Shown here: piece after piece, positions 19,240 to 21,100 of the stretch
How the letters are laid out: each line of letters begins with the position of its first letter
Numbering within the stretch: the first letter of the stretch is position 1
Origin: Balneolaceae bacterium
GTDB lineage: Bacteria > Bacteroidota > Rhodothermia > Balneolales > Balneolaceae
Length of the DNA: 45,758 bases
Assembly (NCBI GenBank): GCA_007694095.1
Contig: RECI01000148.1
Coordinates: forward strand, 1-45,758
Reading direction: 5' to 3'
The notes under the pieces: model-generated
Database searches by the model: none
Seen by the model: only the letters and a program-made list of their open reading frames with translations
Told to the model about the DNA's origin: nothing
Position numbers and translations under genes: made by a program

Positions 19240-19265
19240 CACAATCAAACTAACACACTGTTGCT

Positions 19266-19273
19266 TATATTTG
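19266..19273 (+). promoter_or_regulatory. Candidate -7 element (TATATTTG) before meaB
   Basis: TATATTTG fits the Bacteroidota -7 consensus TAnnTTTG exactly, 20-42 nt before the two likely meaB ATGs. No clear -33 TTG is at the right distance, so this is a weak call. If real, meaB can be transcribed separately from the kinase gene, and the TTG at 19261 cannot be the start codon. Confidence 0.3.
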
Positions 19274-19293
19274 ACCGAAGCGGTTTATGTAAA

Positions 19294-20361
19294 ATGTCCG
19301 TAATCATTTATGCCATGCCTGATAACAATCATTTACATAATGAACTTTCCGATTCTGTCAATCCCGCTTATCATCAGAAACCGGGGAAGTTGAACAGTGC
19401 AAAAGAGTATGCAGACGGAATTCAAAAGGGAAACAGGGCTTTTCTGTCAAGAGCAATTACCCTCATAGAAAGCACAAAAAATGAATACCGGGAGCTGGGA
19501 TATTCCATTTTGGAAAAATGTTACGATTCAACAGGAAACTCAATCCGGATAGGTATTACAGGGGTGCCGGGTGTCGGAAAAAGTACGTTTATTGAAAAAT
19601 TTGGGACATACCTGATCGGGCAGGGTAAGAAAGTAGCTGTATTAACGATTGACCCAAGCAGCAGTGTTACAAAAGGGAGTATACTGGGAGATAAAACCCG
19701 TATGGAAACACTCGCGGTTCAAGAAAATGCTTTTATTCGGCCTACTCCCACTGCCGGTGCCCTTGGAGGAGTAGCCGGTAAAACAAGAGAGGTGATTCTG
19801 CTGTGCGAAGCTGCGGGTTTTGATACCATCATTGTAGAAACAGTTGGCGTTGGGCAATCGGAAATATCCGTGAAAACCATGGTTGATTTTTTTCTATTGC
19901 TGATGCTGGCCGGAGCCGGTGATGAGCTTCAGGGAATCAAGAGGGGAATTATGGAAACAGCAGATTTAGTAATCATTAACAAGGCAGACGGCCAAAACAT
20001 CGAAAACGCCAATCGGGCAAGAAGTGACTATCAACATGCTTTATCACTGTTTCCCCCGCATCCCTCCGGCTGGAAAACACCCGTACAAACAGCGTCCTCA
20101 ATCAAAAATTATGGCATAAATGAGGCCTGGGAAGTCATAAAAGAATATTATGAACAGGTGAATGGGAGCGGGTATTTCATAAATAACAGAAGAGAGCAGC
20201 TGGTATATTGGCTGCATGAAGCTATAGAGAGTGAACTGAAAACCCGTTTTTTCAGTCAGCCGAATGTAAGAAAAAAACTTGCCCAACTCGAAAATGAAGT
20301 GTTGTCGGGAAGCATGAACCCGGCACGTGCCGCGTCGGAATTGATCAAATTATCCCGATAG
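19294..20361 (+). CDS. meaB: Methylmalonyl-CoA mutase-associated GTPase MeaB
   Basis: This G3E-type GTPase loads, protects and repairs the adenosylcobalamin cofactor of methylmalonyl-CoA mutase. The P-loop is GVPGVGKST. Other landmarks are LTIDPSSSVTKGSILGDKTRM (switch region, quoted in part), IVETVGVGQSE and the base-specificity motif NKADG. The C-terminal helical dimerisation part ends normally. I take the ATG at 19294 (355 residues). An ATG at 19315 is also plausible, and the TTG at 19261 looks too far upstream. It lies downstream of mutAB, with which it should work, separated by the sensor kinase gene. Confidence 0.92.
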   Translation: MSVIIYAMPDNNHLHNELSDSVNPAYHQKPGKLNSAKEYADGIQKGNRAFLSRAITLIESTKNEYRELGYSILEKCYDSTGNSIRIGITGVPGVGKSTFIEKFGTYLIGQGKKVAVLTIDPSSSVTKGSILGDKTRMETLAVQENAFIRPTPTAGALGGVAGKTREVILLCEAAGFDTIIVETVGVGQSEISVKTMVDFFLLLMLAGAGDELQGIKRGIMETADLVIINKADGQNIENANRARSDYQHALSLFPPHPSGWKTPVQTASSIKNYGINEAWEVIKEYYEQVNGSGYFINNRREQLVYWLHEAIESELKTRFFSQPNVRKKLAQLENEVLSGSMNPARAASELIKLSR

Positions 20362-20431
20362 GTTCAGGAACTCTACATGATTTGATGTAAATTGATATTT
20401 AGATACAATTAATTGAATGCCCTAATTAACC

Positions 20432-20444
20432 GGAGGTAATCATT
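20432..20444 (+). promoter_or_regulatory. Strong ribosome binding site positioned on an ATT codon
   Basis: GGAGG at 20432-20436, then a 5-nt spacer and ATT at 20442-20444, with an in-frame stop 15 nt upstream at 20427. Spacing is ideal for initiation at ATT. This site decides the methyltransferase start. Confidence 0.6.
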
Positions 20445-21074
20445 AAAAAGCTTAGAATACAAACTGCCAGTCAATTTGACAAGCTTGCCAGCAGGTACAA
20501 CAGGGCTTACCGAAGTTACCTGAGGCATACTCACCGTGAAATGATGAAGCATCTGAAACTGGGCCACAACGATGAAGTTTTGGATATTAGTGCCGGAACA
20601 GGATTGTTGGCAGAAGAAATCGCAATTCAATTTGGTCCATTAAAGCGAATCGTCTTGAATGATCCATCAAAGAATATGCTTGCAGAGGCAAAATACCGCT
20701 TGCGTTATGTAAAGAATGTGGAGTTTACCTCCTTCTTTGCAGAGGAACTCTCCTTTGAAGAAAATTCTTTTTCAAATATCGTCTGCCTGAATTCATTTCA
20801 CTATTATACAAACCAGCCCGGGGTTGTGGAGCAATTGATGAGAATATTAAAACCCGGTGGTACACTTTACCTGCTTGATTGGAACAGAAAAGGTTTCTTT
20901 ATCTTTGTTAGTGCCGCCATCAAACTGTGGTCAAAAGAGCATATTCATGCCCGAAGTTTTGAAGAATTAAAAAATTTACTGACGGAACATGGATTTATAC
21001 TTCGAAAACACAAAGAATGGAGCTATTGGTGGTGGAACTTCTGTTTTTTGAAATGTTCCAAACCGAAAAAATAA
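20442..21074 (+). CDS. Class I SAM-dependent methyltransferase with apparent ATT start
   Basis: This 210-residue methyltransferase has motif I as VLDISAGTGLL, a motif II region (RIVLNDPSKNML) and a post-I acidic loop. The LKPGGTLYLLDWNR segment is typical of UbiE/class I enzymes. The first in-frame ATG (20541) would remove the N-terminal helix (ASQFDKLASRYNRAYRSYL) that precedes motif I in this family. The frame is open back to a TAA at 20427, and between them lies a strong Shine-Dalgarno GGAGG (20432-20436) five bases before ATT at 20442. No ATG, GTG or TTG is available there. I therefore annotate an ATT start, a rare codon known from infC. The substrate is unknown. It ends just before a hairpin shared with hsp20. 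Confidence 0.8.
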   Translation: MKKLRIQTASQFDKLASRYNRAYRSYLRHTHREMMKHLKLGHNDEVLDISAGTGLLAEEIAIQFGPLKRIVLNDPSKNMLAEAKYRLRYVKNVEFTSFFAEELSFEENSFSNIVCLNSFHYYTNQPGVVEQLMRILKPGGTLYLLDWNRKGFFIFVSAAIKLWSKEHIHARSFEELKNLLTEHGFILRKHKEWSYWWWNFCFLKCSKPKK

Positions 21075-21075
21075 G

Positions 21076-21100
21076 AGCCGCCTGTTTTCAACAGGCGGCT
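21076..21100. terminator. Hairpin terminator between convergent methyltransferase and hsp20 genes
   Basis: The stem AGCCGCCTGTT (21076-21086) pairs perfectly with AACAGGCGGCT (21090-21100) around a TTC loop. On the minus strand it is followed by CTTATTTTTTCGG, a T-rich tract, so it is a good intrinsic terminator for hsp20. It can also stop the methyltransferase transcript coming from the left. Confidence 0.8.

Follow-up and report, generated by a model that had tools for sequence, protein, structure and literature searches.

Results

The start region of the methyltransferase gene

The window (the whole stretch of DNA analysed, 45,758 nucleotides of a Balneolaceae genome) contains on its plus strand a coding sequence for a class I SAM-dependent methyltransferase at 20442–21074 (210 aa and a stop codon, read from ATT; PF13649, E 1.1e-17), which is supported by conservation of the N-terminus and a structure model with a pLDDT of 94.8, and is closed by the TAA at 21072–21074. 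The gene for the MeaB GTPase lies upstream on the same strand (19261–20361; PF03308, E 3.5e-103), its stop codon ending 80 nt 5′ of the ATT. An in-frame TAA at 20427–20429 precedes the start region, in which a Shine-Dalgarno core, GGAGG at 20432–20436 (duplex, -9.0 kcal/mol), is placed 5 nt before the ATT at 20442–20444, and the first in-frame ATG, residue 34 of the protein, is located at 20541–20543, all on the plus strand. This layout, including the absence of ATG, GTG and TTG before 20541, had been described in the first-pass annotation and was confirmed in the letters. The neighbouring in-frame ATC (20439–20441, plus strand) is an unlikely start, lying 2 nt from GGAGG in a column that is not conserved (ATC, ATT or ATA, hereafter AUH, in only 5/24 genus orthologs); the column of the ATT is AUN in 22/24 orthologs and TTG in two. 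Directly 3′ of the methyltransferase stop, an inverted repeat (AGCCGCCTG/CAGGCGGCT, 21076–21100) was noticed by eye; it lies ahead of a convergent minus-strand gene and is probably a shared terminator.

The combination of GGAGG with ATT, ATC or ATA at 4–8 nt occurs 17 times on both strands of the window, and the chance of 33 codons without ATG, GTG or TTG is approximately 0.23 in these genes. The pattern in the window alone is thus not significant and could be due to chance; it becomes significant because AUH is conserved at the homologous codon in the genus, as described below.

The distance between meaB and the methyltransferase gene varies among the orthologs, with 239 nt in L009, 306 nt in L010 and 1398 nt in L012, the last value probably being misread by the script. 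In four loci (L008, L014, L015 and L016), the meaB stop codon lies between 8 nt inside and 10 nt before the AUH start, and translational coupling to meaB is possible in this clade.

The protein

The product scored 64.9 bits against Methyltransf_25 (PF13649; gathering cut-off, 27), and Methyltransf_11 was also over its cut-off. SAM motif I (LD.S.GTG) is located at residue 47. Residues 2–37 are mostly helices in the AlphaFold model, and the N-terminus that they form is conserved. The nearest folds in Foldseek were small-molecule and lipid methyltransferases, among them a phosphatidylethanolamine N-methyltransferase (8ys9; TM 0.80/0.81 with balanced coverage and 20% identity). The protein shares the Rossmann class I fold with UbiE/MenG-type and PmtA-type methyltransferases, but unlike UbiE/MenG-type proteins and BioC it falls below the NCBIfam cut-offs: 70.1 bits were obtained for UbiE/MenG (TIGR01934) against a curated cut-off of 158.35, and the cut-offs of BioC and the other NCBIfam models listed were not reached.

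Start codons in Rhodohalobacter

The window's genus, which in the whole-genome set includes Rhodohalobacter, is represented by 28 genomes, of which 25 gave a match at E 1e-20 and three did not. One match (L032 in G026; 30% identity, ATG start) was excluded as a likely non-ortholog, and the 24 orthologs read comprise the window's own and 23 with 45–79% identity to its protein. The comparison of start codons in related genomes that had been proposed for this gene gave ATC in 14, ATT in five, ATA in two, TTG in two and ATG in one at the homologous first codon; 21/24 Rhodohalobacter orthologs thus have a non-canonical start (other than ATG, GTG or TTG), and all of these are AUH. One of the ATA orthologs belongs to a named isolate, R. 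halophilus JZ3C29, and the ATG ortholog to R. sulfatireducens WB101 (G016). With TTG or ATG in three members of the genus, AUH is not indispensable.

Of the 21 AUH genes, 17 have no in-frame ATG, GTG or TTG between the upstream stop codon and the AUH codon; the remaining four (L007, L008, L016 and L020) carry one there, which counts against an AUH start. On the downstream side, the first such codon is at residue 72 in L019, 73 in L022 and 70 in L023. As these positions are beyond SAM motif I (residues 47–49), initiation at a canonical codon should not give a working enzyme in these three species.

The orthologous proteins align with conservation from their first residues, and Y19, Y26, L27 and H31 are invariant. 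Substitutions in codons 2–33 were distributed 20/15/47 over the three codon positions (six non-overlapping pairs; chi-square p 2e-5), and such a coding-type pattern was absent from the stretch 5′ of the start in the same comparison of pairs. A start at 20541 would delete these four invariant residues and most of the N-terminal helices. The use of ATT at 20442 rather than ATG at 20541, as had been claimed from the window, is thereby strongly supported by the ortholog comparison, and non-canonical initiation of the Rhodohalobacter gene is well supported. The predicted strength of folding around the start codon ranged from -2.0 to -13.6 kcal/mol, with no value common to the orthologs.

Origin and drift of the AUH start

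Outside the genus, 26 family genomes gave a match and 24 were read (G096 and G103 were left out). All 24 relatives carry ATG, GTG or TTG close to the corresponding position, with the weak canonical codons TTG and GTG being common, and AUH is therefore derived. On a maximum-likelihood tree, the exchange between AUH and canonical codons required two changes within the genus, and at least five exchanges among ATT, ATC and ATA occurred over the 21 AUH rows. The third base of the start codon has changed repeatedly, and G appeared once. Such a pattern would be expected under selection for the AUH class; the events are few, and no statistical claim is made.

Shine-Dalgarno sequences

The strong Shine-Dalgarno sequence noted for the window is real there but not general in the genus, with a well-placed GAGG/GGAG-type motif in 12 of the 21 AUH species and none in the other nine, which counts against the reading preferred below, because no Shine-Dalgarno sequence would explain the choice of AUC or AUA in these species. 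The 12 motif-bearing orthologs, all AUH, form a clade that includes the window's genome and is explained by one change on the tree. L017 was scored as lacking the motif, as its GGAG lies approximately 17 nt upstream, which is too far; counting it as motif-bearing would make two events.

Shine-Dalgarno sequences are described as generally absent from Bacteroidetes in a survey (PMC3155529). Among ATG genes in three 400-kb stretches of genus genomes, any such motif was found in 19/162, 25/150 and 20/152, and in 0/15 of the ATG-start genes called in the window, where gene starts were taken by the simple rule of the ATG nearest to the onset of the coding score, with no gene finder. Putative GGATCACCTCCTTT-like 3′ ends were found in only some assemblies (e.g. 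G005) in the anti-Shine-Dalgarno search; perhaps rRNA is missing from many of the assemblies.

infC and initiator tRNA

IF3 is the start-codon proofreading factor, and isoleucine-type start codons (AUU, AUC and AUA) are, to our knowledge, known mainly from its gene. The parallel with infC drawn in the first-pass annotation is borne out in this lineage, where ATC is the infC start codon, with a GAGG-type Shine-Dalgarno sequence ahead of it, in 24/24 genus loci (28 genomes searched; L034–L057) and 22/22 loci from the rest of the family (24 genomes searched; L250–L271). As all 46 Balneolaceae loci share this start, AUH initiation is normal for the IF3 gene of the lineage.

Every zero-mismatch match to the anticodon stem-loop pattern of initiator tRNA, a pattern that would miss an initiator tRNA with an altered stem, carried CAT, corresponding to the normal anticodon CAU. 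A special initiator tRNA was also considered in this search and rejected; one-mismatch matches with other triplets look like chance, since a reversed-pattern control also produced matches.

Control families and AgcS

In a control set of 173 ortholog families from approximately 1.2 Mb of three genomes and the window, ten families were flagged for conserved sequence 5′ of the first canonical codon. Inspected by eye, eight of them had a plausibly placed ATG or frames that are not genes, and only two lacked a usual start, the methyltransferase and the AgcS sodium:amino-acid symporter (TIGR00835). AgcS loci were read for 23 of 26 genus matches and 23 of 24 matches outside the genus (L194–L217 and L224–L246); L214, L218, L219 (that of the window's own genome) and L247 were left out because they are incomplete or adjoin the end of a contig. 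The agcS start was CTG in 22/23 genus loci (in G012 at L140:3481–3483) and TTG in one, and among other family members CTG in 17/23, TTG in three, GTG in one and a nearby ATG in two. In an alignment with a solved AgcS structure (6cse), residue 6 of the latter pairs with residue 7 counted from the CTG, which places the CTG at the first residue of that protein. A conserved ATG 14 codons downstream of the CTG is a possible alternative start outside the genus.

In a further gene (G012:C1 near 1171169 and G016:C50 near 105700), which by resemblance we take to be a lipoyl transferase gene, 12/14 residues are conserved in frame upstream of the first ATG; this stretch may belong to an N-terminal extension of the protein or act as a leader element.

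Discussion

In the reading that we prefer, with a probability of approximately 0.78, the methyltransferase gene starts at the ATT at 20442, the AUH class has been held across Rhodohalobacter, and initiation would be weak and subject to rejection by IF3, with the Shine-Dalgarno sequence compensating in part. What was observed directly is the codon class and its conservation, the fact that most species offer no alternative start for use, an ordinary initiator anticodon, and AUC as the first codon of infC in the genus. The ordinary fMet initiator tRNA (anticodon CAU) would pair with AUH with its third base mismatched, and it is from this mismatch that weak initiation would follow. According to a study of IF3 preference (PMC10158994), bases one and two tolerate only Watson-Crick pairs and weaker third-base pairs are excluded by IF3. 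As with infC and with sigR of Streptomyces, IF3 would be expected to reject AUH more strongly the more active it is, and in the 12-species clade that includes the window's genome the strong Shine-Dalgarno sequence may partly offset the weak start. Low output, this compensation and the IF3 sensitivity of the methyltransferase gene are what we infer. Among 408 ORFs, the per-codon codon-usage scores of three AUH members fell within the lowest 5%, and that of the ATG member G016 between the 10th and 25th percentiles; the low scores of the AUH members fit low expression.

That a sequencing or assembly error had converted an ATG is hardly credible: although the draft genome of the window consists of 324 contigs, the same codon is AUH in 20 other genomes, and the occurrence of ATA in an isolate, R. 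halophilus JZ3C29, makes a base-calling error unlikely. Initiation at ATG 20541 or its homologous codon, the part before it being untranslated, is very unlikely. This ATG is the first canonical codon and is the one picked by the ORF listing based on ATG, GTG and TTG, but residues 1–33 are conserved with codon-position bias and modelled as helices, the first canonical codon follows SAM motif I in three orthologs, and no downstream start is common to the orthologs. It is improbable that ribosomes arrive from a preceding ORF through frameshifting or termination-reinitiation, which would make the identity of the codon of little importance. Reinitiation is possible where the meaB stop codon lies within approximately 10 nt of AUH (L008, L014, L015 and L016), and an ATG-, GTG- or TTG-started ORF of another frame runs across AUH in nine orthologs (L014, L015, L017, L018, L019, L020, L021, L025 and L027); against this, meaB ends 80 nt before the ATT in the window, it was not found upstream in 10/24 loci (including L006, cut by a contig end), and no such crossing ORF is present in the other 12 of the 21 AUH orthologs.

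A serious rival to IF3 control is simple low expression without regulation, in which AUH is the real start but merely a setting for weak expression, output being kept low by selection with no regulatory part for IF3; we consider the chances of this to be a little short of even. The frequent use of TTG and GTG in the 24 relatives outside the genus, the low codon-usage scores and the variation of the Shine-Dalgarno sequence between clades all favour such a setting. However, TTG and GTG are also weak, and yet 21/24 orthologs use AUH, the class found in infC of the same genus. IF3-dependent control of the methyltransferase gene is regarded as plausible by analogy, from general knowledge of IF3 and the precedent of Streptomyces sigR.

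The methyltransferase gene resembles infC in its conserved AUH start and, in the window's clade, its GAGG-type Shine-Dalgarno sequence, the two genes occurring in the same genus. It differs in that such a sequence is missing from nine of the 21 AUH species and three genus members use ATG or TTG, and in that it encodes no translation factor and hence implies no autoregulatory loop. According to PMC5472188, E. coli infC starts with AUU and is autoregulated, Streptomyces infC starts with ATC, and Streptomyces sigR starts with GTC in 32/34 species and GTT in two behind a strong ribosome-binding site and is repressed by IF3. The sigR gene is like the methyltransferase gene as a gene other than infC that has kept a non-canonical start genus-wide and, as far as the window's clade is concerned, in its strong ribosome-binding site, but it is unlike it in codon class (GUC/GUU against AUH), being another gene in another phylum and one for which IF3 repression has been shown.

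Few bacterial genes are known to us to have retained a non-canonical start in the course of evolution. Judged from the sequence comparisons, the Rhodohalobacter methyltransferase gene is a candidate member of this group, with infC and sigR. Neither an AUH-started methyltransferase nor a CUG-started AgcS was found reported in the literature searched (titles and beginnings of abstracts, subscription journals being mostly outside), nor was 'Rhodohalobacter' found there together with 'start codon'. Gene finders restricted to ATG, GTG and TTG truncate proteins of this sort.

In this lineage, where few genes have a Shine-Dalgarno sequence, a deep genus has retained AUH throughout apart from three natural exceptions, and its infC starts with AUC; an IF3-dependent reason for keeping non-AUG starts is therefore directly testable. 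More speculatively, and with the odds against it, Balneolaceae may have a small IF3 regulon encoded in start codons and consisting of infC (AUC), agcS (CUG, family-wide) and the Rhodohalobacter methyltransferase gene (AUH). Rhodohalobacter is salt-loving, and the AUH start that its methyltransferase gene shares with the IF3 gene hints at common control. If such a regulon exists, IF3 activity would set the output of all three genes, so that amino-acid uptake and the methylation of a small molecule or lipid would be tied to the machinery of initiation.
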